This document shows, piece by piece, positions 42,826-56,382 of a stretch of 64,000 nt of DNA. The stretch is from assembly GCF_029582805.1 (NCBI RefSeq), contig NZ_JAKKUT010000008.1, forward strand, positions 310,001 through 374,000, in the 5' to 3' direction. The position numbers were made by a program, and so were the translations under genes. The notes beneath the pieces are model-generated. The model ran no database searches. It was given only the letters and a program-made list of their open reading frames with translations, and was not told where the DNA came from. Position 1 is the stretch's first letter; each line of letters starts with the position of its first letter. Source of the DNA: Candidatus Synechococcus calcipolaris G9 (GTDB lineage: Bacteria; Cyanobacteriota; Cyanobacteriia; Thermosynechococcales; Thermosynechococcaceae).

Positions 42826-43692
42826 CTATTCGGGAGTTGTTGCCGGTTCTAGCTGGGAAACCACCGCCTGCAACCGGGGATTGGCCAGCAGAGCTTGGGT
42901 ATCACTCACGAGGCGATCGCCCCAGAGATTTTCTCGCTGAAATTCCACCGTGGCATAGCGGCTATCCAGTTGGATCGCTTCTTCCGCTAGGGGGAGAGCC
43001 TGGGCCACCTGACCTTGCTTAAATAGGGCCGTGGCTAGGGCCAGTTTCGGTTCGCTAGCTTTGTCGTCCAGGTCAACCGCTGTTTGCCAGTTTTGAATGG
43101 CTTGACGAATATTTCCCTGCTCGTACTGAATTAAACCAATATTATTAAAGGCTGGCCAAAACTTCTTGTCTAGGTTAATGGCTTTGCGGTACTGAGCGAT
43201 CGCCCGACTGCCTTGGTCAAGCATCATATAGGCATTGCCCAGATTAAACCATTCCTCCGGGGTATCATCTTTGATGGCCAACCCCTGCTCTATCGCCCGC
43301 ACTGAGCGGCCATAGTCCTTAGTGCGAAAATAGGCTGAACCCAGATTAAAATACACCCCAGAATTTTCTTGGTTCAGGGCCAAGGATCGCTCTAGGGCCG
43401 TAATCGCTTCTTCGGCCTGGCCCACCGTCAGATGGAGTCCCCCCAATAGGGCCCATATCTCATAGGTATCCGGGGCCAGTTGGGCCGCTAATTTAGCCCG
43501 GACAAGGGCATCCCCAAATTGTTGAAATTGGGCGAGTTGCAACGCCTCTTGGGCCACTGTCAAGCCATCCCGCTCCATATCGGCTGGATTAGGCTCTAGG
43601 GTGCGTGGCAATAGAACCTGGGCCCTGGGGGCAGGGGCAGCAATACTGCTCAAGAGAATGGCTAAAATAAACGTTGATAAAAATTTAACCAC
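42826..43692 (-). CDS. Secreted TPR-repeat protein
   Basis: A 288-aa protein with an N-terminal signal peptide (LSTFILAILLSSIAAPAPRA) and about five TPR repeats between residues 45 and 250 (for example PEEWFNLGNAYMMLDQGSRA). It is probably periplasmic or lumenal scaffold. The last part (LWGDRLVSDTQALLANPRLQ) is seen in related cyanobacterial TPR proteins. No partner gene is obvious. Confidence 0.85.
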   Translation of the reverse strand: MVKFLSTFILAILLSSIAAPAPRAQVLLPRTLEPNPADMERDGLTVAQEALQLAQFQQFGDALVRAKLAAQLAPDTYEIWALLGGLHLTVGQAEEAITALERSLALNQENSGVYFNLGSAYFRTKDYGRSVRAIEQGLAIKDDTPEEWFNLGNAYMMLDQGSRAIAQYRKAINLDKKFWPAFNNIGLIQYEQGNIRQAIQNWQTAVDLDDKASEPKLALATALFKQGQVAQALPLAEEAIQLDSRYATVEFQRENLWGDRLVSDTQALLANPRLQAVVSQLEPATTPE

Positions 43693-43778
43693 GGAACTAA
43701 AGCCTTCCTGGAAATAGATCGGTTTGTTGCTATGAAAATAATCCTAGCGTCTTCCCTCTAGTCTACTGATCAATCAAC

Positions 43779-43808
43779 AAAAAAGACCCAACCATGATGA
43801 TCGGGCCT
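43779..43808 (-). terminator. Probable terminator of the IS110-like gene
   Basis: On the minus strand, an imperfect GGCCC/GGGTC stem (plus-strand 43785-43808) is followed by six T residues. It lies about 24 bp past the transposase stop. Confidence 0.6.
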
Positions 43809-43831
43809 TTAATCTGTGTCACGGGATGGTT

Positions 43832-45013
43832 TTATTCTGACAAGGCATCTAACAAGTCATAGAATAGCCACTCAACAGCCTTGCGGATAACCCGCGATCG
43901 CACTAACTTGATCGGCGTACCTGTTGCCTTCAGGCGGTCAAGTTCTAGGCTTACCTGTTGGCCGCGATCGCTCTTGGGCCGGCTACGCTTAACTTCTATC
44001 CTGGTAAAGAGCCACTGCCAGAGGGATAGGCGGCATAGGGTTGATCCTCCTGGTATCCAGCGTTCAGATTTACCGCTGGAGTCTTCCACCAGGCCCATGC
44101 CTAGCATTAGCTTAAAACTGTTGAGTGACCGATACCGCTTGCTAGGCTTGCCATTGTTCCCCTTCACTGTTTCCACTATTTCCAGTCCATCAGTACCTAG
44201 GAAATTCTCAAGCGGATAAATATGGCTCAAGATGCAACTAGCAACCCGATCACCAAAGCCATATTGACTAAAGACCCGTTGATAGGCGGCAAAACAAGGA
44301 TTGTGGTATAGGCCAACCATTTCGGCCTCAATCTGGCTGATCTTGTCTTCAATCGTGACTAATTGGTTAGCTAGGAATTGGGTAAAGTCACTCAATCCAC
44401 TGCCTATGCTGGATTCCAGGCAACGGCCATAGATCGTTTGCATCCTGGCAGGGATGGCCCGGCCGGCAATGAACCGCCATAGTGCCCCTTTGGTTTTAGA
44501 CTGCGATACCTCGGGCCATTCATGGCTTAACTGTTGTCTCAAGCGGTTCTTAATCTCAGTGGTTAGGGATTCAAGATAACGAATCTGTAAGCCCGATTGT
44601 CTCAACTGGTAGCCTGTTGAGTGTAGATCAAAGGCTAGGAAATAGCCTGATTGTCCTAAGTGGCACTGCCCGTACTGTGCCAATGCAAAGGCATCCGCTT
44701 GATCATTTTTGTTGGGCAGTCTTAGGGTCAATCGGTAGGATTTTAGTTGAGCATGACCAACCCAAAGCAGTTTTACTCCTGACCCTGCCAGATGATCGGC
44801 CCACAATTTTCCGTAGTGAACTCCTGTAGGCTCTAAAACGGCATAATCAGGTTTCAATGCAAGTAAGGCTTTAATTCCAGCGGATTCAGCATCATACCTA
44901 GCGATCATCTCCCTATTTTCCCTGAACCATTCTCTGGGCTGATCTACGGGATGATCCAAACTCGCAGCATAAATGAACGAGTTAGAAATATCTAACCCTA
45001 CAATTCTGGCCAT
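43832..45013 (-). CDS. IS110-like DEDD transposase/recombinase
   Basis: A 393-aa recombinase. The RuvC-like DEDD acids are at Asp8 (VGLDIS), Glu61 (VLEPTG), Asp104 and Asp107 (KNDQADAF), and a probable catalytic Ser324 lies in GGSTLCRL of the C-terminal Transposase_20 part. It is divergent from common IS110 proteins. The family includes bridge-RNA-guided transposases and the Piv invertases. IS110 ends usually lack inverted repeats, so its boundaries cannot be drawn. The 274 bp upstream are non-coding and structured. It may be an IS next to, or a working part of, the phage-like island. Confidence 0.85.
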   Translation of the reverse strand: MARIVGLDISNSFIYAASLDHPVDQPREWFRENREMIARYDAESAGIKALLALKPDYAVLEPTGVHYGKLWADHLAGSGVKLLWVGHAQLKSYRLTLRLPNKNDQADAFALAQYGQCHLGQSGYFLAFDLHSTGYQLRQSGLQIRYLESLTTEIKNRLRQQLSHEWPEVSQSKTKGALWRFIAGRAIPARMQTIYGRCLESSIGSGLSDFTQFLANQLVTIEDKISQIEAEMVGLYHNPCFAAYQRVFSQYGFGDRVASCILSHIYPLENFLGTDGLEIVETVKGNNGKPSKRYRSLNSFKLMLGMGLVEDSSGKSERWIPGGSTLCRLSLWQWLFTRIEVKRSRPKSDRGQQVSLELDRLKATGTPIKLVRSRVIRKAVEWLFYDLLDALSE

Positions 45014-45069
45014 TTAATTAACTCCATCGGGTGAATTTCCAACACTCCCCAATTTTTAGGCTCTGAATC

Positions 45070-45275
45070 ACCCAAACTGTCGCTATTCCCTCTCAAGCCC
45101 AAAGGGGAACAGATTTAGGCAAGTGGTTAGGCCGAGAAGACGCAAAGCCCTTAGGCCATTTCAGTCTCAAGCCCTACCACTTGCTTGCATCTGTGCCGAT
45201 CAGGGTTGGAAGCTGACCCGCGATCGCCCCAATGGATAGGGGCAATTTCGTTCCCTGGCTTCAAGGGAACTCATC
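45070..45275 (-). ncRNA. Candidate bridge RNA of the IS110-like element
   Basis: Immediately 5' of the recombinase the minus strand folds into several clean hairpins: a 7-bp stem with 7-nt loop (45250-45270), a 5-bp stem (45226-45243), a long stem of 9 bp extended by 4 more after one bulge (45119-45131 with 45172-45184), and a TTCCC/GGGAA stem (45086-45109). GGGCTTGAGA occurs twice (45091-45100 and 45165-45174). In IS110-group elements the region before the recombinase encodes a bridge RNA with internal guide loops. Assignment rests on position and structure only. Confidence 0.5.
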
Positions 45276-45287
45276 AGGCGGATTAAT

Positions 45288-45626
45288 CTAAAACGTGAAG
45301 TAATCAGCCTTGTTTAGGGATTCGTACTGGCTGGCTGTGTCAACGGCGGCATCCCAATCTGAGCTAGTTGATTCCTGTTCATTAGGAAAATTAGGGCAGG
45401 CTAGACGAACGATCGCGCGATCTGTGATGTCATCCAGAAACGCTAGGATGGCTCGCAGTCTGATCGCCCCCGCACCTGAAACTTGGATCCGTGACTCCCC
45501 GATCTGCAAAACAAAAATCATTGCTTTGCCTTCGGCCTGAAATTCAGTAATACAGTCAATCGCTTGTAAGTTAACCCAGTGGTTTCCCACCTTAAAAAAA
45601 GTTGGGATGTCTACAAAATCATTCAT
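45288..45626 (-). CDS. Small unknown protein, cassette A
   Basis: A 112-aa protein rich in beta-prone residues in the first 60 positions (VGNHWVNLQAIDCITEF, then FVLQIGESRIQVSG) and acidic after that. Its N-terminal half looks similar in pattern to the 78-aa protein at 45702-45938, and both have an almost identical 44-bp leader. Family not recognised. It is transcribed leftward, away from the regulator gene. Confidence 0.6.
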   Translation of the reverse strand: MNDFVDIPTFFKVGNHWVNLQAIDCITEFQAEGKAMIFVLQIGESRIQVSGAGAIRLRAILAFLDDITDRAIVRLACPNFPNEQESTSSDWDAAVDTASQYESLNKADYFTF

Positions 45627-45636
45627 GGCAGTTAGA

Positions 45637-45680
45637 GCGATCGTCAGTTCTTAGCCGCGATCGCGATACGGTGAAAAAAA
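45637..45680. repeat. 44-bp leader repeat, copy 1
   Basis: Matches 45949-45992 at 40 of 44 positions. It starts 10 nt before the ATG of the 112-aa gene and contains two GCGATCGC-like boxes plus an A-run. The two copies are 312 bp apart, each just upstream of one small leftward gene, as if a gene-plus-leader cassette had been duplicated. Confidence 0.75.
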
Positions 45681-45701
45681 AAGACAGTGACTCCAGGCGG
45701 A

Positions 45702-45938
45702 TTAAAAATCATCTGGGTTATCTTGTGGAGGATTTACGGCCCTGACCGAAAACACTGGAAAGTATTGCTCGATCCATTTCTCAAGCTCTAGGGCCTCTGC
45801 CATTTCGATAAACAGGGGATCGCCGTCCACAAAGTCTAAACGTACAATCTGAATCTCAGAATCTATCCACTCAATCCTTACTAAGTGTTCAAGGTTGAAC
45901 GTTGTTTGAATTCTGGGCAGAAATATAAAGTTAGGCAT
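45702..45938 (-). CDS. Small unknown protein, cassette B
   Basis: A 78-aa acidic protein (FNLEHLVRIEWIDSEIQIVRLDF, then MAEALELEKW). Family not recognised. It has its own 44-bp leader repeat and a GGCGGATTAA sequence at its 3' end that recurs after cassette A. Leftward transcription from the operator region suggests early or regulatory genes of the island. Confidence 0.55.
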   Translation of the reverse strand: MPNFIFLPRIQTTFNLEHLVRIEWIDSEIQIVRLDFVDGDPLFIEMAEALELEKWIEQYFPVFSVRAVNPPQDNPDDF

Positions 45939-45948
45939 GGGGGAATTA

Positions 45949-45992
45949 GCGATCGCCGGTTCTTAGCCGCGATCGCGTTAGGGTGAAAAAAA
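45949..45992. repeat. 44-bp leader repeat, copy 2
   Basis: Second copy of the repeat at 45637-45680, lying 10 nt before the ATG of the 78-aa gene and about 55 bp from the twin operators. A leader role (promoter, operator or processing site) is inferred from placement. Confidence 0.75.
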
Positions 45993-46048
45993 GATGAAAA
46001 CTCCCTGAGCGATTGCCAACCGGCGATCGCTTTGTTTGTTTTCTGGTT

Positions 46049-46093
46049 TAAGCGTAAATCAATTTACGCTTACCGTCAATCAGTTTACGGTAA
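46049..46093. promoter_or_regulatory. Twin palindromic operators
   Basis: Two 24-bp sites share three bases and have centres 21 bp apart, about two helical turns. Site 1 (46049-46072) is a perfect palindrome with 11-bp arms (TAAGCGTAAAT) and a CA centre. Site 2 (46070-46093) has the same 11-2-11 layout (first arm TTACCGTCAAT) with two mismatched positions. The regulator ATG at 46095 follows directly, so binding should shut off its own gene. Confidence 0.85.
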
Positions 46094-46094
46094 A

Positions 46095-46349
46095 ATGACT
46101 AAAAACTACTTATCACCGCTTATGCTACTCAGAACTAAAGTAGGCCTTACCCAGATTGAGCTTGCCGAAGCTTTAGGAGTAACTGAGGCCACAGTTAGAA
46201 ATTGGGAACGTGGCCGTAGCGTTCCACAGCTATCTATTCCACAGGTAAAGGCCCTTTGCAGAGTTTTGGCAATTTCACTAGACGATCTACCCGATAGCTT
46301 TGGCCCTCAACCGATTGAGACTAATCGCCAGGTGCTAGGTGATGGCTAA
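46095..46349 (+). CDS. Cro/CI-type helix-turn-helix regulator
   Basis: An 84-aa protein that is nearly all HTH_3 domain: LRTKVGLTQIELAEALGV, then TEATVRNWERGRSVP. It would bind the operators directly upstream as a dimer. ATG 46095 is chosen because it follows the operators; a TTG at 46032 would put them inside the gene. No ribosome site is visible, so translation may be leaderless. It overlaps the next gene by 8 bp. Confidence 0.87.
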   Translation: MTKNYLSPLMLLRTKVGLTQIELAEALGVTEATVRNWERGRSVPQLSIPQVKALCRVLAISLDDLPDSFGPQPIETNRQVLGDG

Positions 46350-46866
46350 AGAATTTCATCAGTTCACCATGGATGAGGCCCTGGAGGCCCAAGACCTGGA
46401 GCTTGCAAAAAAGCGATTCATTGGGGCCTACTTTGATCTAGATGAGCCAAAACAAGAATCAGAAGTTTTACCCGTTGCTGATGGTTTTGATCCGGTGGAA
46501 GTTAGGAAACTTCCCTTATGGCAGCAAATTTGTCGGATGACATTGCCTAAAAATCGGCATAACCCAAGCGATCGCCCCCCATTGAATCCCAGAGAAACCA
46601 AAGTAGTAGCTACTAAAAACCCCCCAAAGCCCCCAAAATGCCCCCAAGGGTTTTTAGGCGAATCAACCCAAGCCCAGGAGGATCAGCCTGTTTCTAGCGG
46701 TTCTGATGTATGCCAGAATCAATTAGACAGACTGAACCACGACAATCAAACCGCTGGATGGCTAGAACATCGTAGAGTTAATGGTCATGGCCCCTACCTT
46801 TACTATTGCTGGAGGGATGCCCATGGCAAACGCAAGGCAAAGTATCTAGGGAAGCAAAACCGTTAA
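46342..46866 (+). CDS. Unknown island protein with HGPYLYYCWRD motif
   Basis: A 174-aa protein: a charged N-terminal half, a Pro/Lys linker (NPPKPPKCPQGF), and a C-terminal segment HGPYLYYCWRDAHGKRKAKY resembling short domains in plasmid and phage proteins of cyanobacteria. Family not otherwise recognised. ATG 46342 overlaps the regulator stop, so they are cotranscribed. Confidence 0.65.
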   Translation: MAKEFHQFTMDEALEAQDLELAKKRFIGAYFDLDEPKQESEVLPVADGFDPVEVRKLPLWQQICRMTLPKNRHNPSDRPPLNPRETKVVATKNPPKPPKCPQGFLGESTQAQEDQPVSSGSDVCQNQLDRLNHDNQTAGWLEHRRVNGHGPYLYYCWRDAHGKRKAKYLGKQNR

Positions 46867-46919
46867 CAGCCCCATGCCTACAGCAAAGCGATCGGAGTAT
46901 CGCGGCGGCCCAACAACTA

Positions 46920-47477
46920 TTAGAGCAGCGCGATCGCCCGTTCTATTTCAGGCTTGGAAGTGTCTATGTATCGCTGTAGGTTTTCTAGGCTACGATGCCC
47001 ACTAACTTGCTGAATTACCCTTGCGTTCACTCCAGCCCTCGCCAATGTAGTGATCGCCCCCCTCCTGGCAGAGTGTGAAGAATAGCCAACCATCCTTAAT
47101 TTTTTGAAAGCCTGGGATAGAGCCAGTTTGTAAGTATCAGTGGGAACGGGCCGATTAGGATTCAGATAAGACGGGAACAGCCATGGGCCATCATCTAGGG
47201 GAATCTGACTCAATAGGCGGAATATGCTAGGTGTTACCGGAATTTCCCTAGTTACCCGATCCTTGCGGGTGGCCCGAGAAATTACGATCGCCGCTAACGG
47301 CTTGCCACGGGAATCAAAACAATCGGCCCGCCGTAACTGGCAGATGGCCCCGGCCCGTTCTACACAATGCCAAGTTAGCCCCAAGATAAATTTATGGGGT
47401 GGATTTAGGGCATTGTAAACCTTTGCAAAGGTTTCCGGTGTTAGCGGTTCTGCCTGGCCATTTCGATTAATTTTCAC
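46920..47477 (-). CDS. Short tyrosine recombinase/integrase (catalytic domain only)
   Basis: A 185-aa site-specific recombinase with the catalytic set Arg41 (ERAGAI), Lys72 region, His135-x-x-Arg138 (SSHSARRG), His161 (SGHRS) and Tyr170 (LQRYID). It lacks the usual arm-binding and core-binding N-terminal domains. It probably integrates or excises the island. It is transcribed leftward, divergent from the structural-like gene set. Confidence 0.87.
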   Translation of the reverse strand: MKINRNGQAEPLTPETFAKVYNALNPPHKFILGLTWHCVERAGAICQLRRADCFDSRGKPLAAIVISRATRKDRVTREIPVTPSIFRLLSQIPLDDGPWLFPSYLNPNRPVPTDTYKLALSQAFKKLRMVGYSSHSARRGAITTLARAGVNARVIQQVSGHRSLENLQRYIDTSKPEIERAIALL

Positions 47478-47546
47478 TACGTCTTTAACCGTTAGAATGC
47501 GATAAAATACGAATTGAAAATCTCCTAAACAGTTTCTCTAAACCCC

Positions 47547-47607
47547 AATCCCTTGAACTGGTAACGGTTCTAGGGATTCTTACTAATAGGTATTTTACTT
47601 AAAATAC
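47547..47607. promoter_or_regulatory. Two inverted repeats between integrase and rightward genes
   Basis: 47547-47578 has 12-nt arms (AATCCCTTGAAC and its near complement, one mismatch) around an 8-nt spacer. 47590-47607 is GTATTTT-ACTT-AAAATAC, a perfect 7-bp palindrome. They could be recombinase sites, operators, or a promoter switch for the divergent genes; no attachment-site partner was found. Confidence 0.6.
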
Positions 47608-47668
47608 GCTGTTGTCAGTGTTAAAAAACAAGGCTTATTCTGATAGTAATTCTAACGGAATAAAAAAA

Positions 47669-47977
47669 ATGACTGCATTCACTACAGCCAACATCCCTAG
47701 TAATGTGAATACCTTGGAAGAACTTGCAGCATGGGCAGCTTCAGCCCTAGCTGAGGTCAACCCATCCGCTACTATCGTGGTGGCCCCAGGTCAAGCGGCC
47801 CGGGCGGCAAACGTGCAAAGCGTGTTTTTTGAAAATCAATCAACCAACCCGGAACGGTTAGCGATCGTCCTATATCTCCCCTTGGTTGCTGGTTGGCGCG
47901 GTCAGGGAAAAATTTGGAGTAATGGGGTGGGCGAATTGTCAGCTACAGCATTACCAACTAGCTACACATCAAACTAG
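47669..47977 (+). CDS. Unknown protein, first rightward gene of the island
   Basis: A 102-aa protein, Ala-rich helix (NTLEELAAWAASALAEV) followed by beta-prone segments. ATG 47669 is chosen, with a weak GGA upstream; the frame is open to 47612. Family not recognised. Position at the head of the rightward set suggests an abundant or early structural product, but this is not shown. Confidence 0.6.
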   Translation: MTAFTTANIPSNVNTLEELAAWAASALAEVNPSATIVVAPGQAARAANVQSVFFENQSTNPERLAIVLYLPLVAGWRGQGKIWSNGVGELSATALPTSYTSN

Positions 47978-47987
47978 GTAAGGGTAG

Positions 47988-49467
47988 TTGATTCCCCCCC
48001 ATCTAGTTCCAGCGGCCGAAGCTTATAAAGAAGAATTACTACGCCAGCGTATCCAGGAGGCGCATCGGCCACTCCCTGACCTTGGGAAGATACCGAAGCA
48101 CCCAAACCCCCATCCTGGCTCTTTGCCCCCTCAGACCCCGGCCCCAACATAACACGGTAGGGCCCATTTCACTGCGATTTGAAAAGGTCGTAGGTCGCAC
48201 CGGCTGGTTTATGAGAAATGGGGCCGGCTCCACTTGGTTCGTTTCTGGAGTCACTCAAGGCGGCATTCTGAATGACATTCAAGGAGGTGAGGTATCGTTC
48301 TCGCCCGTAGGTCAGCCCCCAATCACGCCTAGCGATCGCTTTCCCCCAACCCCTAGGCCATCTCCTGGAGCTACCCCGGCCAGCCCCCAATCACGCCCCC
48401 CGGCCGTTCCTGGAGCATCACCGGCTAACCCCCTACCCAGTCCACAGCCAGAAGCCCCGGCGGCCAACCCTAATAATCCCGTTCCCCCGGCCGGGCCCAA
48501 CAATAGACCCGTACCAATTCCAGGCGATGCCAACCCGCCGGCCTGGCCATCCTCCCCTAACCCTGAACGGCCCCACGATCCGGCCTATCCCAACAATCCC
48601 CCGGACTACAACCCTAACGCCCCCTACTCTCCCCATGCCCCGGCAAGCCCCAACCCATTCAACCCCGATCAGCCTTTGGGTGATCCACCCGTTGAAACTG
48701 TCACCCCTAGCAATCCTGACCCCATCCCGTCGGCTACTGAGAACACAGGAACAACCCGGCAACCATCACCCCAACCCCAACCTTTACCCATCACATCCCC
48801 CGTACCAGGTGAGCAGGTCACATCTACCACTGACCCCAACCCCCAAGGCCAGGACAATCCCAACCCTAGCCCCAACCCAAATTATCAATTCACCCCCGGC
48901 CCGGAAAATCCAACAAACTCAGCAAGCGCGTGCCGGTTTGAGTTAGGGCCATACGGGTTAATTATGACCCTCCTAAACAAAATTCTGGAGGCCTTGAATA
49001 AGGAGGATGAACAAGGGGCGGCCAATGGGCCCCAGTTAGAACAAGTTCAGTTAGCCTACGTTACGGGGTCAAGTGGTAGTCGCCAACTAAACAGCCATCA
49101 GTTTCAAGTCTTGCCGGGTACAGTACCGGCCGCTACGATTCAAGATTTCAACCAAACGGCCCAATGGGCATTAGTTGATCCGGGCGACTATTCCCGGAAA
49201 ACCTACGAATTGTTAGGCGGGGGCACGATTTTTAATGAGAATCACCAAGCGGTGATCGCCCCTGAACAACAGGTTAGGCAATCCATAGATCAGATGGCCC
49301 CAGATGGTGAGAACCCCGGAAATATTCAAGTATTGGGAATTGCCGGCCTCATTACCGGAATCATTGGGGCGGTGGCATTTCGTCAAGGGTTGCACACATT
49401 CCCCCGGTCAATAGAAACATTTGATGAGGTTACAGGCGATCCGGCGGTAGCAGTGGCCAAGAATGCC
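47988..49467 (+). pseudogene. Truncated, deleted first copy of the large proline-rich protein gene
   Basis: From TTG 47988 (AAGGG upstream) a 54-codon frame runs into a stop at 48150-48152. That stop was created by a 443-bp deletion relative to the second copy (second-copy 49597-50039 missing between 48150 and 48151). The rest repeats the second copy's beta domain and Pro-rich region out of frame with this start. The chimeric open frame 48082-49662 has no plausible start and reads its first 22 residues in the wrong frame, so this copy is broken. Confidence 0.75.
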
Positions 49468-51356
49468 CTTATAAAGAAGAATTACTACGCCAGCGTATCC
49501 AGGAGGCGCATCGGCCACTCCCTGACCTTGGGAAGATACCGAAGCACCCAAACCCCCATCCTGGCTCTTTGCCCCCTCAGACCCCGGCCCCAACATCCCC
49601 TAAAATCCCACTCCCTAAAATCCCCAAATTACCCAAACTGCCCAAGCCACCAAGCGGGTTAGGTGGTTTGGGAAAATTGCTAGGGCCGGCCCTTGCCGTC
49701 CCTGTTTTGATTGATGAGGTTGGCAAGCTAGAGGATATATCTCGCCAAAGGCAAGCCAGACAGCGAGAGCTTGAAGACTTCTACAACAAAAAACTAAGGG
49801 ATGCTAACGATGGCTCACCCCTGGCTAACTTTCGGGATGTAGTCACTCGCACCGCGTTGGGGATGCCATTAGTTGACCTAAATCCCCCCGTCAAATATCC
49901 CCCCGGCGAAAATGGGCCCTTCTATCCAACAGAAGCCAGCGAAGCCATTACCTATACGGTCAAGTTTTCTAAAACTCAATATAGGCAGAGTGGCACAAGC
50001 GGAAACTGGATCACTTCGTCTAATGGTGGCACCTGGGGGAACACGGTAGGGCCCATTTCACTGCGATTTGAAAAGGTCGTAGGTCGCACCGGCTGGTTTA
50101 TGAGAAATGGGGCCGGCTCCACTTGGTTCGTTTCTGGAGTCACTCAAGGCGGCATTCTGAATGACATTCAAGGAGGTGAGGTATCGTTCTCGCCCGTAGG
50201 TCAGCCCCCAATCACGCCTAGCGATCGCTTTCCCCCAACCCCTAGGCCATCTCCTGGAGCTACCCCGGCCAGCCCCCAATCACGCCCCCCGGCCGTTCCT
50301 GGAGCATCACCGGCTAACCCCCTACCCAGTCCACAGCCAGAAGCCCCGGCGGCCAACCCTAATAATCCCGTTCCCCCGGCCGGGCCCAACAATAGACCCG
50401 TACCAGTTCCAGGTGATGCAAACCCGCCGGCCTGGCCATCCTCCCCTAACCCAGAGAGACCCCATGATCCGGCCTATCCCAACAATCCCCCGGACTACAA
50501 CCCTAACGCCCCCTACTCTCCCCATGCCCCGGCAAGCCCCAACCCATTCAACCCCGATCAGCCTTTGGGTGATCCACCCGTTGAAACTGTCACCCCTAGC
50601 AATCCTGACCCCATCCCGTCGGCTACTGAGAACACAGGAACAACCCGGCAACCATCACCCCAACCCCAACCTTTACCCATCACATCCCCCGTACCAGGTG
50701 AGCAGGTCACATCTACCACTGACCCCAACCCCCAAGGCCAGGACAATCCCAACCCCCAAGGACAGCCTAACTATCAGTTCACCCCCGGCCCGGAAAATCC
50801 AACAAACTCAGCAAGCGCGTGTCGGTTTGAGTTAGGGCCATACGGGTTAATTATGACCCTCCTAAACAAAATTCTGGAGGCCTTGAATAAGGAGGATGAA
50901 CAAGGGGCGGCCAATGGGCCCCAGTTAGAACAAGTTCAGTTAGCCTACGTTACGGGGTCAAGTGGTAGTCGCCAACTAAACAGCCATCAGTTTCAAGTCT
51001 TGCCGGGTACAGTACCGGCCGCTACGATTCAAGATTTCAACCAAACGGCCCAATGGGCATTAGTTGATCCGGGCGACTATTCCCGGAAAACCTACGAATT
51101 GTTAGGCGGGGGCACGATTTTTAATGAGAATCACCAAGCGGTGATCGCCCCTGAACAACAGGTTAGGCAATCCATAGATCAGATGGCCCCAGATGGTGAG
51201 AACCCCGGAAATATTCAAGTATTGGGAATTGCCGGCCTCATTACCGGAATCATTGGGGCGGTGGCATTTCGTCAAGGGTTGCACACATTCCCCCGGTCAA
51301 TAGAAACATTTGATGAGGTTACAGGCGATCCGGCGGTAGCAGTGGCCAAGAATGCC
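48022..51356. repeat. Tandem duplication, units of 1446 and 1889 bp
   Basis: Unit 1 is 48022-49467 and unit 2 is 49468-51356. They agree apart from the 443-bp deletion in unit 1 and a few clustered differences (near 48524-48562, 48862-48888 and 48930). Direct repeat R1 is 48022-48150/49468-49596 (129 bp) and R2 is 48151-49467/50040-51356 (1317 bp). Most differences around 48540 are synonymous, which suggests divergence or recombination rather than an assembly duplicate. Confidence 0.9.
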
Positions 51357-52154
51357 GTAGATGTCACCCTAACCACTAACTCAACGGGTAAGGCGATCAT
51401 GACGGGGTTAAAGAAGGCCCAACAATTCCTAAACACCATTAGTCAAAGGCTTCACTTTGATCGCGTGACCAATTATCTAACCTTGATCACTACCCTACAT
51501 AATGGGGCGATGCTATCTAGAAATTTGGGAATCTCAATCCTATTTCTGCTAGACAATGCTTTACAGATTCCTGGCTGGCAACCAAAAGACGAGGAGGGCA
51601 ACGTGATCAGCGTTGCTCAGTTATTGGGGTCTACTGTAGAGCAATTCCTAATTTCAATCATGGGGGAAGAACTCTATAACGGCGGTGTCAAAACTTGGCA
51701 TCAGTTGAACAGAATCTATCAAGCGGCCGCGAATATTGTTTGGTCTATTCAATCCATCGGCTATTCAATCCTAGAAGCAATCGAAATTGTAGGGGAATAC
51801 GTTGCAAAAATTGGTAATGCTCTTAAGCGGTTTAGGGCAGTAGGGGAGCGGGCCTATAGCTGGATGAATCCCCGGCCCAATTTTTCCAATAGATTTTTTA
51901 CCAGACTTCAGGCCACCCAGGAATTAGTAGATAACCTGGACGCGATCGCCGGGGAAGTGATCAACATTCAGAGCCAAACAGAATTACTAGGCACTCAGAA
52001 GCAGGAATTAATGGACGCTCTCGCCGGGGATACTCCAGAGGGTGAAATTGCCGATAACACGGCGATCAAGGATGACTACGAATCGGCATTAGATGATAGT
52101 CAATCCCCGGAAATTGAGGATTCACACTTATACCCCCCATCTCCAGAGGATTAA
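49569..52154 (+). CDS. Large proline-rich, phage-like structural or adhesion protein
   Basis: 861 aa by the longest frame, but TTG 49569 has no ribosome site and lies inside a frame that once began at 47988. Layout: Pro/Lys N-terminus; hydrophobic Gly segment (LGGLGKLLGPALAVPV); coiled region; beta domain about 130-215; a linker of about 200 residues dominated by Pro, Asn and Ser; then a helical C-terminal half with hydrophobic segments and an acidic tail. Family not recognised. It could be a virion spike, adhesin or scaffold. The duplication may leave it poorly translated. Confidence 0.65.
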   Translation: MPPQTPAPTSPKIPLPKIPKLPKLPKPPSGLGGLGKLLGPALAVPVLIDEVGKLEDISRQRQARQRELEDFYNKKLRDANDGSPLANFRDVVTRTALGMPLVDLNPPVKYPPGENGPFYPTEASEAITYTVKFSKTQYRQSGTSGNWITSSNGGTWGNTVGPISLRFEKVVGRTGWFMRNGAGSTWFVSGVTQGGILNDIQGGEVSFSPVGQPPITPSDRFPPTPRPSPGATPASPQSRPPAVPGASPANPLPSPQPEAPAANPNNPVPPAGPNNRPVPVPGDANPPAWPSSPNPERPHDPAYPNNPPDYNPNAPYSPHAPASPNPFNPDQPLGDPPVETVTPSNPDPIPSATENTGTTRQPSPQPQPLPITSPVPGEQVTSTTDPNPQGQDNPNPQGQPNYQFTPGPENPTNSASACRFELGPYGLIMTLLNKILEALNKEDEQGAANGPQLEQVQLAYVTGSSGSRQLNSHQFQVLPGTVPAATIQDFNQTAQWALVDPGDYSRKTYELLGGGTIFNENHQAVIAPEQQVRQSIDQMAPDGENPGNIQVLGIAGLITGIIGAVAFRQGLHTFPRSIETFDEVTGDPAVAVAKNAVDVTLTTNSTGKAIMTGLKKAQQFLNTISQRLHFDRVTNYLTLITTLHNGAMLSRNLGISILFLLDNALQIPGWQPKDEEGNVISVAQLLGSTVEQFLISIMGEELYNGGVKTWHQLNRIYQAAANIVWSIQSIGYSILEAIEIVGEYVAKIGNALKRFRAVGERAYSWMNPRPNFSNRFFTRLQATQELVDNLDAIAGEVINIQSQTELLGTQKQELMDALAGDTPEGEIADNTAIKDDYESALDDSQSPEIEDSHLYPPSPED

Positions 52155-52158
52155 CCTA

Positions 52159-52971
52159 ATGAGTTTGCCAGAAGACTTTGATCCGTGTGCCCATCTCTAC
52201 AGCGTGTTCCTGTCTGCCCATAACCGCTTAGTCAGAGATGAGTTTAAGGATATAGACGATGATGATTTAACCGTACCCAGAAGTAGCCTAAGAATCGCTT
52301 GCCTGGTAGAGCGTGAGGATTCGGCCCCCATGTTGCTCCTTAGACTATGGCTGTTTTATGGGATTGTGCGAAAAATGGCCGATATGCAGGCCCCAATCTA
52401 TGGCCTGCCTACGGATCAGTATCAAGAACAGCAAACCTTTAGGCCCCTGGTTAAACTTCACTTCAGACAAGACCCGGAGGCCGTACCTAGCGATCGCTCT
52501 CCAGTGAGGGCCGATGTTAGTTTTAGGCTTCGCAATGAAACTTACCAAACAATCACCCCGGCTAAATTAACCCAACTAGCAAACCGGATCAAAGTACAGT
52601 TTGGCGGCGGTGAAGGTTGGCGGTGGTCACGCGGCAAAAAACTAATTACCTACAAGCAACCAGAGAACGGGTTCAATTTCCAAATCTATGCCCTAAGTCA
52701 AGCTGAAGCGGTTGGACTAATCCAAAAAATTTGTGCTGTTGCTGAGGTTCCCTACGATGCCAGTTTGATTGTTGAACACTCCAGTAGCCAAAATTACCCA
52801 GAGTTAGGGCCACCGGCCGTTATCCTTCAGGAATCAATCAGGCTACCCGCTAGACGTAGGACGGCCTTTGTCAGATTCAGATGGGCCAGCATTTCGATAT
52901 GGGGCCTCACCCATGATCGCGTTCTAGTAGCTCGGGCCACTGATCGCCGGAATCCAATAGTTGAATTTTGA
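52159..52971 (+). CDS. Unknown island protein
   Basis: A 270-aa protein with a helical N-terminal third (LLLRLWLFYGIVRKMADM) and a mixed C-terminal part rich in Arg and aromatic residues (GEGWRWSRGKKLITY). ATG 52159 is chosen, 4 bp after the large gene; the frame is open to 52093. It ends before a perfect AACCC-TATA-GGGTT inverted repeat at about 52990-53003. Family not recognised. Confidence 0.7.
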   Translation: MSLPEDFDPCAHLYSVFLSAHNRLVRDEFKDIDDDDLTVPRSSLRIACLVEREDSAPMLLLRLWLFYGIVRKMADMQAPIYGLPTDQYQEQQTFRPLVKLHFRQDPEAVPSDRSPVRADVSFRLRNETYQTITPAKLTQLANRIKVQFGGGEGWRWSRGKKLITYKQPENGFNFQIYALSQAEAVGLIQKICAVAEVPYDASLIVEHSSSQNYPELGPPAVILQESIRLPARRRTAFVRFRWASISIWGLTHDRVLVARATDRRNPIVEF

Positions 52972-53067
52972 CGTAACAGCACAGGACGAACCCTATAGGG
53001 TTTGTTAGCTTCGTTTGCAGTCTAGGGCAGTGGTTAAAGTGGTTTTACAACTAATTCAGGTTCCACA

Positions 53068-53610
53068 ATGGGCAGACGGCACGGATCACGATATTTACGA
53101 ATTTTGCGCGGGCCTAGCGGTACAGCAAAGCAAATGCTACTCAGCTATTTAGATGGTTCCCGTGAAGTGTCTTATCCAGAACGGCGCGTCCCACGGCCTG
53201 ATCCGGCTCAAGTCTTGGTTCCCACCTTTAATCCTGATTTTTTAGCAGAAGGGAAAAAACTGATCCAAGAGGTTAACTCACAGCGGTTTGTCGCTCCCAT
53301 CACGACCTATGTAAACGCGGCCCGCTGTACCCTACGGGCCGGCGGTGATACTACAGGCGTTCGGCTTCGTGGATTCTTGGCCCCACGGGTATCTATCGTT
53401 ACTGGCCGTCAGGCCCAATCTGAGAACCGGGAAACATCTAAGCTTACCGGACAATCCTATATCAAATACGGTGGCCAGGGTGTGGTCGTTCCCTTTGGGC
53501 CGGCCACTGAAACGGAAACGGAAATGGAAGCGGTAGCTGCAATCTTGAATACAGCGAAGGCGGCAAATATCCGTAATCTGGTTAGCTACATTCCCGGTAC
53601 GGTTTACTAG
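53068..53610 (+). CDS. Unknown island protein, basic N-terminus
   Basis: A 180-aa protein starting MGRRHGSRYLRILRGPSG, with mid-chain Arg-Gly-rich segments and a beta-prone C-terminal half (GGQGVVVPFGPATETE). It could be a capsid-associated or nucleic-acid-binding protein, but no family supports that. It is followed 2 bp later by the next gene. Confidence 0.65.
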   Translation: MGRRHGSRYLRILRGPSGTAKQMLLSYLDGSREVSYPERRVPRPDPAQVLVPTFNPDFLAEGKKLIQEVNSQRFVAPITTYVNAARCTLRAGGDTTGVRLRGFLAPRVSIVTGRQAQSENRETSKLTGQSYIKYGGQGVVVPFGPATETETEMEAVAAILNTAKAANIRNLVSYIPGTVY

Positions 53611-53612
53611 GG

Positions 53613-53849
53613 ATGAATGGGCAGCTTCTATTCAGTCAGTTAGAGGTTAATCCTGATTTTTTGGGGATTAACCTAACGAATCCTGACCCGTCAGAGGTTG
53701 CCCATTATGTTAACCGGAATCAGATTTTGGCCCGGGCCATTAGGGGCGAAGGTGATCCAGACGATTATTTAGAATGCTTGCTAGATCAAGGAATTAACGT
53801 AGATCAATTTCTGAGTCACTCAGATGATATTCTGAGGCCGTTTCTATGA
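53613..53849 (+). CDS. Small acidic island protein
   Basis: A 78-aa strongly acidic protein (GEGDPDDYLECLLDQGINVDQF). Family not recognised. Its last bases overlap the next start as ATGA, which supports real translation as part of the packed rightward operon. Confidence 0.65.
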   Translation: MNGQLLFSQLEVNPDFLGINLTNPDPSEVAHYVNRNQILARAIRGEGDPDDYLECLLDQGINVDQFLSHSDDILRPFL

Positions 53850-54310
53850 ATATGCCCCCCATTACTGGAAATTGGGGCCAGTATGGGAACTGGAAAACCT
53901 TGCAAACCATTGTTAAGACCGCCGATCCTGATACTCCCCCTGAGTTTGCATTCCCCCTAGAACCAGAAGAAATAATTACCCCTAACTACTTGCTACTGGT
54001 TGGATGTTCTAGTCCGATCGCTAAACCCCATTGGCAGTTTGGCGGGATGCTACGCGGTGGATACCTGCTAAATCAGCATGGTTCGGCCCAAATTGGGGAA
54101 GTAGCCCTATTTTCTAGCTACAAAATTCCTCTCAACTATTACCAAATCTGTTTTATTCCCCCCAATGGATCAGACTTCTATTTTTGGAAATACTTTATCC
54201 CCCCCTGGATATGGGACATCAGAATAGAATTTTGGTATTTCGATAGTGACTATCAATTCCTTGATCCTCTGATGCTAGAACAAATCCATGATCAGACCGT
54301 AAATGTGTAG
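53846..54310 (+). CDS. Unknown aromatic-rich island protein
   Basis: A 154-aa protein unusually rich in Trp, Tyr, Phe and Pro (NWGQYGNWKTL; DFYFWKYFIPPWIW), so a compact beta or surface-exposed fold is likely. Family not recognised. It overlaps the preceding gene by 4 bp and precedes the possible holin by 15 bp. Confidence 0.65.
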   Translation: MNMPPITGNWGQYGNWKTLQTIVKTADPDTPPEFAFPLEPEEIITPNYLLLVGCSSPIAKPHWQFGGMLRGGYLLNQHGSAQIGEVALFSSYKIPLNYYQICFIPPNGSDFYFWKYFIPPWIWDIRIEFWYFDSDYQFLDPLMLEQIHDQTVNV

Positions 54311-54325
54311 GACTAGGAAACAGTA

Positions 54326-54568
54326 ATGGCCACAGATGATCTATGTCAGAATTTAACCCTTCGCATTGGGGAACTGCTAGGGATGCTGCAAAGTTTGCAG
54401 TCTCGCATTACTAGCCTAGAAGAATGCGATCGCCGTCAGTACCAATTAATTGCCATTCTGGTAGCGGTAAATTTGGGATTAAATAACCCCCTGACTAATC
54501 AACTTTTTAACATTCAGGATGGCCCGGCGGCCCAGTGGGCCTGTGAAGCCCAGGAGGATCAACGGTAA
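54326..54568 (+). CDS. Possible holin-like protein
   Basis: An 80-aa protein: a heptad-like coiled coil (LLGMLQSLQSRITSLEE), then a short hydrophobic stretch (LIAILVAVNLGL), then an acidic tail. That layout recalls XhlA-type holin/anchor proteins, and its stop overlaps the lysozyme gene start. The hydrophobic stretch is only about 12 residues, so the call is tentative. Confidence 0.5.
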   Translation: MATDDLCQNLTLRIGELLGMLQSLQSRITSLEECDRRQYQLIAILVAVNLGLNNPLTNQLFNIQDGPAAQWACEAQEDQR

Positions 54569-55494
54569 TGATTAGTTTGCGGTTTCAACCAACACCGATC
54601 ACTGACCACGGCCTGATCCGGTGGCATCTCTCCTTAATGAATGGAGATCGCCCAGTGGATCAAATCAATGCCTATAGCGGTTCACCCTATGCCCAGGCAC
54701 TAAATACAGGGTCACGCGATTTTCCTGGTAGCTTGCGGCCTCTCCCTCCTGGTCGCTGGAAAATTGGGCCCATTGAAGATGCTGGATCATCATGGGGCGA
54801 AGCGATCGGGCGTTACTGGATTGATCTGCTACCCATGGCAGGTACTCAAACCTATGGGCGATCAGCGTTCGGTATCCACCTAGACGCAAACCACCATCAA
54901 CCTAGGGGCCGTGGTAGTGCTGGCTGTATTGTCACCCCTAGGGAAGCCGATCTAGAGCGGGTATTAGGTTGGCTACGGGCCAAGGCAAAGCCTGAATTTC
55001 TAGTGTGTTCCCATTCAACAGCGATCGCCGCCGGACAAGTAACTTACAACATCACCGCAGCGCGGCGGGCCTGGCTGGATACGATCGCATGGGCAGAGGG
55101 AACCGACGGGCCTCATGGCTACCGTACAATTTTCAGTTATAAATTTTTCTCTGATTTCTCAGACCATCCACGGCAGATTCAAAAATCTGGCCCCTTGTCC
55201 AGCGATGCCGCTGGCCGGTATCAGTTTCTCTCAACAACATGGGATGAATGTAAACACGCCCTTGATCTCCCTGATTTTTCTCCAGCAAGTCAGGATCAAG
55301 CGGCCCTATGGCTCATTGACAAGAAACGGGAAGCCTTAGAATTTTGCGATCAATTAATGATAGGGCCGGCATTAGATCGGCTTTCCTATGAATGGGCCAG
55401 CTTACCGGCGGCCAGTGGTAGGGGGCGATATGGCCAACCGATTAAATCTGTTCCCCAAATTAGGGCAAAACTTAACCAACTACTCAAGGGTTAG
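54568..55494 (+). CDS. Endolysin: L,D-transpeptidase-like plus lambda-R-like lysozyme domains
   Basis: A 308-aa bifunctional peptidoglycan protein. Residues about 1-145 carry His104 and Cys120 in GIHLD and GSAGCIV, the YkuD/Tlde1-type catalytic pair. Residues about 165-308 match phage lambda endolysin R (lytic transglycosylase): IAWAEGTDG with the catalytic Glu177, FSDFSDHPR, AAGRYQFLSTTWDE and FSPASQDQAALWLI. No signal peptide is seen, so a holin would be needed. This gene is the clearest phage marker of the island. Confidence 0.87.
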   Translation: MISLRFQPTPITDHGLIRWHLSLMNGDRPVDQINAYSGSPYAQALNTGSRDFPGSLRPLPPGRWKIGPIEDAGSSWGEAIGRYWIDLLPMAGTQTYGRSAFGIHLDANHHQPRGRGSAGCIVTPREADLERVLGWLRAKAKPEFLVCSHSTAIAAGQVTYNITAARRAWLDTIAWAEGTDGPHGYRTIFSYKFFSDFSDHPRQIQKSGPLSSDAAGRYQFLSTTWDECKHALDLPDFSPASQDQAALWLIDKKREALEFCDQLMIGPALDRLSYEWASLPAASGRGRYGQPIKSVPQIRAKLNQLLKG

Positions 55495-55752
55495 AGATCG
55501 CCCCTTAACTAATTGGGGATTCAGTCTAATGCAGGAAAACGCCAAGGGTACTCGGTGGCCCCTATTGTGCCATACTCCCGCCCCTTAGATGGGGTAAATT
55601 AACTGGGTGCGGTTCTTCTGGGCGGTTGTTCCTTAGGGTGGGTATGGGAGACTTGAGTGATCCTCAACTAGATTTGTCCCCAACTCAGCCCCGACTTGTC
55701 CCCAGATTCAACCTGTTAAAGGCTCTCTTTTTCTTTTGTAGGACTTCAGTAA

Positions 55753-56382
55753 ATGGATTTTCCCCTAGATATTTTTGATGGCGATCTTTCCAGTGCAGCC
55801 TTGGACACCTTCCTAGCTAGCGATCGCCTGGCCATTGATACGGAAACCATGGGACTGAACCCCGCCCGCGATCGCCTTTGTTTAGTGCAACTCTGTGATG
55901 TCCAGGGAAATGTTGCCGTGATTCGGGTCGTTCGTGGACAGAAGGAGGCCCCCCACCTGAAAACCTTACTGGAGCAGCCCAACTGTCTCAAGATTTTTCA
56001 CTTTGCCCGCTTTGATCTGGCCACCCTGCGTCATCACCTGGGTATTCAGGTTGCCCCGGTATTCTGCACCAAGATTGCCAGTAAATTAGCCCGTACCTAT
56101 AGTCCCCGCCATGGTCTCAAGGATTTAGTTTTGGATATTACCGGTGTTGAACTGGATAAATCTGCCCAAAGTTCTGACTGGGGAAATGCGACCAATCTCT
56201 CGGAGACCCAACTGCGTTATGCTGCCAATGATGTTCGCTACCTGATTCCCCTCCAGACAGAACTCACTGAAATGCTAGAGCGGGAAGGACGCTGGCCCCT
56301 GGCCCAGGATTGTTTTCAGGCCCTCTCGATCATGGTGAATTTGGATTTGGCAGGGTTTGACCGTATTTTTGATCATTCCTGA
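55753..56382 (+). CDS. rnd: Ribonuclease D-family 3'-5' exonuclease
   Basis: A 209-aa DEDDy exonuclease without the HRDC domain of full RNase D. Catalytic acids are Asp29 and Glu31 (AIDTETMG), Asp in FHFARFDLA, and the Tyr/Asp pair in LRYAANDVRYL. It trims RNA 3' ends. It converges on the TPR gene with a 10-bp overlap. The 258 bp before it mark the right edge of the phage-like island and contain no gene I can support. Confidence 0.9.
   Translation: MDFPLDIFDGDLSSAALDTFLASDRLAIDTETMGLNPARDRLCLVQLCDVQGNVAVIRVVRGQKEAPHLKTLLEQPNCLKIFHFARFDLATLRHHLGIQVAPVFCTKIASKLARTYSPRHGLKDLVLDITGVELDKSAQSSDWGNATNLSETQLRYAANDVRYLIPLQTELTEMLEREGRWPLAQDCFQALSIMVNLDLAGFDRIFDHS

Follow-up and report, generated by a model that had tools for sequence, protein, structure and literature searches.

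A 274-bp non-coding region in the cyanobacterium Candidatus Synechococcus calcipolaris G9 very probably gives rise to a bridge RNA that guides the neighboring DEDD recombinase, and the two together would integrate, and presumably excise, an entire genomic island of 11.8 kb. The region (45014-45287, minus strand) lies within a 64,000-nucleotide stretch of contig NZ_JAKKUT010000008.1 (positions 310,001 to 374,000), hereafter called the window. Its first part carries a hammerhead ribozyme that would give the guide RNA its 5′ end. This reading is carried by the fold and covariation of the RNA, a ribozyme core with a tertiary pairing, four guide arms that match both ends of the island, and empty sites indicative of precise insertion. 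A preliminary description of the region, made from the letters of the window, had placed a candidate bridge RNA before a divergent IS110-like recombinase; the hammerhead, in leader positions 45218-45283, and the 11.8-kb length of the element go beyond it.

Guide arms of the leader RNA and the island junctions

The leader contains no gene, and nearly all relatives of the recombinase are likewise preceded by a non-coding gap of ~200-300 nucleotides. The minus (RNA) strand folds at -84.2 kcal/mol, compared with -68.7 ± 4.8 kcal/mol for shuffled sequences (z = -3.2, with 0 of 200 shuffles as stable), and forms the several hairpins described earlier, including a long bulged stem that encloses the first loop. 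The motif GGGCTTGAGA, which had been reported twice in separate loops, has exactly two copies in the window, at 45165-45174 and 45091-45100 of the minus strand, one at the start of each guide loop. Covariation in related elements, named earlier as a check, is also evident. RNAalifold applied to 19 relatives yields 14 pairs, 9 of which have changes on both sides. For the second loop, both-sided changes occur at seven of eight pairs, and 93% of cells pair versus 80% in shuffles (0 of 500 shuffles reach this value); sliding the pair partners of this loop abolishes the signal. A covariance model of the loop (R1) returns 49 matches in 1.24 Mb, all of them within leaders of DEDD recombinase genes. 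A structured RNA with two paralogous internal guide loops thus lies beside the recombinase gene, and the following features define its proposed relationship to the ends of the island.

45014-45287, minus: non-coding leader, 274 bp, comprising the predicted hammerhead ribozyme and bridge RNA
43832-45013, minus: DEDD (RuvC-like) recombinase, 393 amino acids, IS110_2 family (NF051857, 433 bits)
45160-45167, minus: left target guide AGACT plus core GAA, 5′ arm of loop 1, equal to the DNA at 55527-55520
45136-45143, minus: right target guide GCGTC plus core complement UUC, 3′ arm of loop 1, complementary to GAAGACGC at 43754-43747
45086-45093, minus: left donor guide AGAGG plus core GAA, 5′ arm of loop 2, equal to the DNA at 43759-43752
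45065-45075, minus: right donor guide UUGGGUGA plus UUC, 3′ arm of loop 2, pairing with GAATCCCCA with one bulged U
45056-45101, minus: donor-binding loop hairpin (model R1, 42.5 bits, E=4e-7)
43747-43759, minus: right junction AGAGG-GAA-GACGC (left donor, core, right target), 77 nucleotides after the recombinase stop codon
55514-55527, minus: left junction AGACT-GAA-TCCCCA (left target, core, right donor), past the final cargo gene

In IS621, the left arm of a loop carries the sequence of the top strand left of the core, and the right arm complements the top strand right of the core (PMC11208160). By this rule, the right junction after insertion would consist of left donor, core and right target sequences, and the left junction of left target, core and right donor sequences. 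Both window junctions match the guides exactly, and the right donor arm pairs fully given the one bulged U; the right donor guide of IS621 likewise pairs discontiguously (PMC11208160). A lack of correspondence between loops and junctions had been set beforehand as grounds for abandoning the bridge RNA, and the opposite was found. The core is included in all four guide pairings, and the complementarity extends to both target and donor, with a predicted donor site of AGAGGGAATCCCCA and a predicted target site of AGACTGAAGACGC. The right junction is the only exact match in the window, and 0 of 48 RNAs of other elements score as high on the window right flank as the island's own RNA.

The pairing of four arms with both junctions recurs in many relatives. 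Among 28 elements with a right junction, the left-donor arm is exact in 25 and the right-target arm in 24, the remaining 4 having one mismatch, whereas random re-pairing of right-target arms and flanks gave no more than 8 of 28 in 10,000 trials. Fifteen left junctions agree at 5/5 target and 5/5 donor positions. When left ends were sought without use of the target guide, 15 elements had the end motif GAATCCCCA upstream, and the preceding 5 nucleotides were each element's own left target guide; in one element the motif occurs a second time, and a match ~32 kb away in the divergent element G205 was set aside. In a held-out set of five, composed of an Aphanizomenonaceae TIOX110 plasmid and four Okeania/Microcoleaceae loci, all five right junctions fit (four exactly, one with one mismatch), as does one left junction, exactly.

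A fixed GAA core was our first assumption, and it was dropped because other elements use GAT, AAA, GTA or GTC. The core varies in step in RNA and DNA, being GAA in most elements, GAT in C1, AAA in G035a, GTA in G177 and GTC in C7. C1 and C7 are islands at the starts of two other contigs of the host genome, and all three islands of this genome fit their own RNAs with three different cores; in C7, the target side fits, with a core mismatch in the left donor arm. One element is present in two copies, at two sites that have only the guide-defined target in common.

These data also bear on a mini tyrosine recombinase encoded in the island (46920-47477). Tyrosine recombinases are the usual integrases of islands, and many of the islands examined here conserve one, so that this enzyme might perform the integration with the DEDD gene as a passenger. 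However, the junctions differ from element to element exactly as the elements' own RNA guides differ, which a tyrosine integrase would not explain, and the scanned stretch of several islands (e.g. G177 and G190b) contains no match to a mini tyrosine recombinase. We regard this alternative as highly improbable and favor RNA-guided integration by the DEDD protein.

Empty sites for element G276a were found at six genomic places in the same genus, which align ungapped through the predicted target, three with exact AGGGTGAACGAAA, and lack the whole 19 kb. Joining the flanks of this element restores a pirin gene. Joining the G190b flanks lengthens an EAL-type gene, and in five genomes of the same genus this region is uninterrupted, with divergence at the junction itself. 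The joined flanks of G201b fall inside a toxin-antitoxin gene. Based on the ungapped sites for G276a, with supporting synteny at G190b, insertion occurs without target duplication beyond the core.

Two arrangements of guides deviate from that of the window. In the G207 leader (L082), the 3′ arm of loop 2 copies that of loop 1 (CCGTCTAGGGCTTTTCACAATTCATAGGC twice), as might result from conversion of one guide into the other. In L090 (G333b) and L092 (G308), a site TACGG-AAC-ATTTA ~140 nucleotides after the recombinase stop codon matches both arms of one loop, the match extends further, and the right arm precedes the left arm in the RNA. A different core (AAC) and a different loop order or use are suggested for the G205/G308/G333 clade.

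The hammerhead ribozyme and the predicted 5′ end of the guide RNA

The start of the leader has, in order, stem I, CUGAUGA, stem II, GAA, stem III and UC/GCGG, the slash marking the predicted cut. We recognized this arrangement in the aligned leaders and then tested it with a pattern search and by covariation.

45218-45283, minus: hammerhead ribozyme, type I topology (stem I open), strict pattern match with covarying stems
Stem I: ATCCGC/GCGGGT
45277-45271, minus: CUGAUGA
45270-45250, minus: stem II
45249-45247, minus: GAA
45246-45223, minus: stem III
45222, minus: C17, with the cut predicted between 45222 and 45221
45198-45217, minus: 5′ stem-loop of the bridge RNA, whose GGCTTC-like strand pairs with hammerhead loop II (GAAGCC)
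45029-45034, minus: UCACCC, upstream of the recombinase start codon and complementary to GGGUGA of the right donor guide

The invariant core nucleotides of a type I hammerhead, stems I to III and an H at the cut site are all present. A strict pattern requiring three stems and all core letters matches 24 of 49 DEDD leaders and nothing elsewhere in 1.47 Mb. A relaxed scan matches 30 of 48 leaders, with 7 matches elsewhere in 2.2 Mb, and several further ribozymes are visible by eye. Stems II and III differ widely among leaders, and compensating changes preserve their pairing; the scan for these stems required pairing, and the evidence is therefore the variety of pair types. Rfam 15 gives no match at gathering score in the window or in eight loci, its hammerhead models included (best 13.6 bits, type III), which we take to reflect limited model sensitivity. 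No exact match to the ribozyme pattern was found in viral contigs.

The tertiary contact between loop II and stem I is represented by a covarying pairing of loop II with the stem-loop that follows stem I. The pairing is GAAGCC/GGCTTC in the host genome, and elsewhere takes the forms GATCC/GGATC, GACGT/ACGTC, GACGC/GCGTC, AACGC/GCGTT and GACAC/GTGTC. When each loop II is matched with its own stem-loop the pairing sum is 130, versus a maximum of 122 in 10,000 permutations.

IS621 RNA is made from a promoter formed where the ends of the circular element meet (PMC11208160). Such a promoter cannot produce the island RNA, which is over 10 kb away from the left end; another way to define its 5′ end is needed, and the ribozyme would supply it. 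Alternatively, the bridge RNA might be real but the hammerhead might mainly control recombinase expression by cutting the message, and not guide maturation. The ribozyme does reside within the 5′ leader of the recombinase message, gene-control roles have been suggested for bacterial hammerheads from their contexts (Perreault et al. 2011, PMC3088659), and the UCACCC before the start codon hints at translational control. Nonetheless, the cut falls upstream of the entire bridge RNA, such that the RNA and the reading frame stay together on the 3′ product, and loop II is tied to the first stem-loop of the bridge RNA. Given also the distance from the other island end, we consider a role chiefly in expression possible but unlikely, and favor maturation of the guide RNA.

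The segment near the start codon forms at least 5 Watson-Crick pairs with the right donor guide in ~70% of elements (bulged base included), and both sides of the pairing change in G206a, G206b, G111b and G142c. From this complementarity, UCACCC might be self-inhibitory or might serve as a translational switch or coupling element. We also considered that UCACCC, close before the recombinase start, might be a donor site, and rejected this because the left donor guide has no match there and the real left end, TCCCCA, is distant; the segment is retained as an RNA-RNA pairing.

Leaders L063, L064, L074, L075, L087, L088 and L089 have two alternative overlapping hairpins in place of the hammerhead, for example CTCAGCA..TGCTGAG followed by TGTGTCCAAAGCA. 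These hairpins are possibly degenerate or a different processing element.

Recombinase, cargo and architecture of the islands

43755-55519, minus: integrated island, 11,768 bp (~11.77 kb) between two GAA cores, with the recombinase at the right end in the minus-strand reading
42826-43692: host tetratricopeptide repeat gene flanking the island
55753-56382: host RNase D-like gene flanking the island
45288-45626, minus: small gene, 112 amino acids, directly upstream of the leader and in the same direction
46920-47477, minus: mini tyrosine recombinase, 185 amino acids (PF00589, E=1e-14), conserved in islands
47612-55494, plus: island cargo, comprising a small MTAF gene, large proline-rich proteins, unknown proteins and an endolysin-like protein
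54568-55494, plus: the endolysin-like protein

The recombinase is indeed a divergent IS110-like protein. It scores 433 bits on the NCBIfam model NF051857 (transpos_IS110_2) versus 55 bits on the main IS110 model NF033542 (cut-off 140), and the three DEDD proteins of the host genome reach 25-32 bits on Pfam PF01548, the window protein falling below the cut-off of 29. All 10 recombinases of the first alignment match NF051857. A profile of ten relatives matches only ISCro4 (PDB 9t56, E=4e-8) and IS621 (PDB 8wt6, E=3.5e-6) among solved structures. D8, E61, D104, D107 and S313, which comprise the DEDD residues and a C-terminal serine, are invariant among relatives and are candidate catalytic residues, a role that we infer from IS621. 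An AlphaFold model built from 5 sequences was poor (predicted local distance difference test score of 56) and was not used.

In a tree, a branch with support of 100/99 separates the island proteins from canonical cyanobacterial IS110 proteins. Relatives occur in 40 of 390 genomes of the class. One full-length relative is carried by a 178-kb plasmid of Aphanizomenonaceae TIOX110 (L110 13998-15179, CP150887.1), with both junctions and the ribozyme intact. No relatives of the recombinase were found in IMG/VR or INPHARED, none of the protein p180 in IMG/VR, and none of the large island protein in INPHARED. In G035b (L024/L099), the recombinase start is split by an insert resembling a miniature inverted-repeat transposable element, with the inverted repeat GAGGATGTTTTAAAA/TTTTAAAACATCCTC at its bounds.

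The islands share a recurrent order of DEDD gene, RNA, small genes, helix-turn-helix gene, mini tyrosine recombinase and cargo block. Small genes occupy the position upstream of the leader in relatives as well, and the 112-amino acid gene of the window is probably co-transcribed with the leader, judging from its position and direction. The core-to-core distance is 4.6-19.0 kb in 15 elements, the window included, with cargo genes inside, as opposed to a short insertion sequence (IS) with only a transposase gene. The RNA is 5′ of the recombinase gene, but in the window the recombinase start is 10.5 kb downstream of the left end, unlike the arrangement in the IS110 group, where the RNA sits in the left end under a circle-junction promoter. 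By these boundaries, the recombinase and RNA are an integration module at one end of large (~5-19 kb) gene-bearing islands and not a simple IS.

Canonical IS110 elements are short, and the module might instead be an ordinary IS that by chance borders an unrelated island or a prophage remnant. The window and C1 islands are 98% identical upstream and diverge from 45194, as if a separate element had inserted. However, this divergence starts within the RNA, past both the ribozyme and the first stem-loop. Moreover, the left end that matches the guides lies past all cargo, at a distance of 11.8 kb from the right end (4.6-19 kb in 14 other elements), the same cargo genes recur beside divergent recombinases, and the G276a empty sites are missing the complete island. 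A chance neighbor is thus exceedingly unlikely, and we retain the reading of a single integrating island.

The shared portion of the window and C1 islands (window 45194-46043 versus L017 2611-3460; also L018) includes the ribozyme and first stem-loop. Past 45194, the guide loops are unrelated and the recombinases are 45% identical; C7 breaks at the same position. The guide-plus-recombinase block looks like an exchangeable module.

Within the cargo, a 1.32-kb piece of the large proline-rich gene is duplicated at 98.5% identity (window 48022-49596 and 49468-51356), and a pair of identical 129-bp direct repeats bounds it. Contigs C1 and C7 terminate inside the same gene. The duplication may be a variable region or an assembly problem. 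The block of the small MTAF gene, large protein, p292 and p180 is inverted relative to the recombinase, compared with the window, in L100, L069, L070, L073, L091 and L093, and the adjacent mini tyrosine recombinase might be an invertase.

Proposed mechanism and relation to known systems

In the proposed mechanism, a transcript would start upstream, probably with the small genes, and the hammerhead would cut at 45222/45221 to create the 5′ end of the bridge RNA. The 3′ product would carry, in order, the short stem-loop, the target loop, the donor loop and the recombinase message. The recombinase would bind the bridge RNA, with loop 1 pairing to the chromosomal target AGACT-GAA-GACGC and loop 2 to AGAGG-GAA-TCCCCA, the joined ends of a circular island, an intermediate that we infer. 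With both loops holding the common 3-nucleotide core, strand exchange there would insert the island without loss or duplication.

Several points weigh against this interpretation. The case rests on sequence analysis throughout, and the junction search itself selects good matches, a bias that the permutation, held-out and empty-site controls address. The suggestion that an empty site be sought in a relative was borne out to the base for one element only (G276a), and no base-level empty site was found for the window island, its nearest relatives being ~65-70% identical in protein; in a search by its two flanking genes, these were far apart or on different contigs wherever both were found. Approximately 18 of 48 leaders lack a hammerhead in the relaxed scan, some of them with one visible by eye, and it appears to be absent from lineages such as G190, G100 and G047, so that the hammerhead is not essential to all members. 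Finally, some divergent lineages (e.g. G009, G043, G052, G205 and G336) have no identified guides.

These islands may represent a previously undescribed class of cyanobacterial integrative elements, a proposal for and against which we see equal weight. Such elements would use a bridge RNA-guided recombinase as integrase and a guide RNA born by hammerhead self-cleavage, with ribozyme and guide RNA in one tertiary fold, so that cleavage, guide folding and recombinase translation may couple into a switch. None of the papers searched joins hammerheads to IS110 or bridge RNA. The bridge RNA systems in the cited papers are short insertion sequences, whereas here islands of up to 19 kb are placed at sites spelled by 5+3+5 nucleotides. 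Several natural 3-nucleotide cores combined with large cargo are directly relevant to programmable insertion of large DNA. A hammerhead that defines the guide 5′ end without a junction promoter would explain how an RNA far from the element end is made, and would provide a concrete biological job for a bacterial hammerhead, a group of unclear function.

Like the IS621/IS110 group (PMC11208160, PMC11208158), the island system combines a RuvC-like DEDD domain with a C-terminal serine domain and encodes its RNA 5′ of the recombinase gene, in the order 5′ stem-loop, target loop, donor loop. In both, each loop holds two guides, all four pairings include the core, the right donor pairs discontiguously and insertion is clean. 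The island element differs in being ~5-19 kb with cargo and not a short IS, in having its RNA more than 10 kb from the left end with a hammerhead at the RNA 5′ end, and in its protein, which belongs to a separate clade. Its cores are 3 nucleotides and variable (GAA, GAT, AAA, GTA, GTC), whereas that of IS621 is CT. The IS1111 group (seekRNA, PMC11187229) also has a DEDD transposase guided by RNA from the non-coding region of the element, but that RNA is in the right end after the gene (PMC11208160), whereas the island RNA precedes the gene. The description of NF051857 is that of an IS110 family transposase only, with no RNA, island or ribozyme recorded. The island ribozyme shares with bacterial hammerheads (PMC3088659) the invariant core CUGAUGA...GAA...UH, three stems and a tertiary loop contact, and published examples are often near prophage integrase genes (PMC3088659). 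It differs from them in scoring below the Rfam 15 gathering score, in being fused to a bridge RNA and in making its tertiary contact with the first stem-loop of that RNA. By every core feature tested in RNA, guides and protein, the system belongs to the bridge RNA-guided IS110 superfamily.
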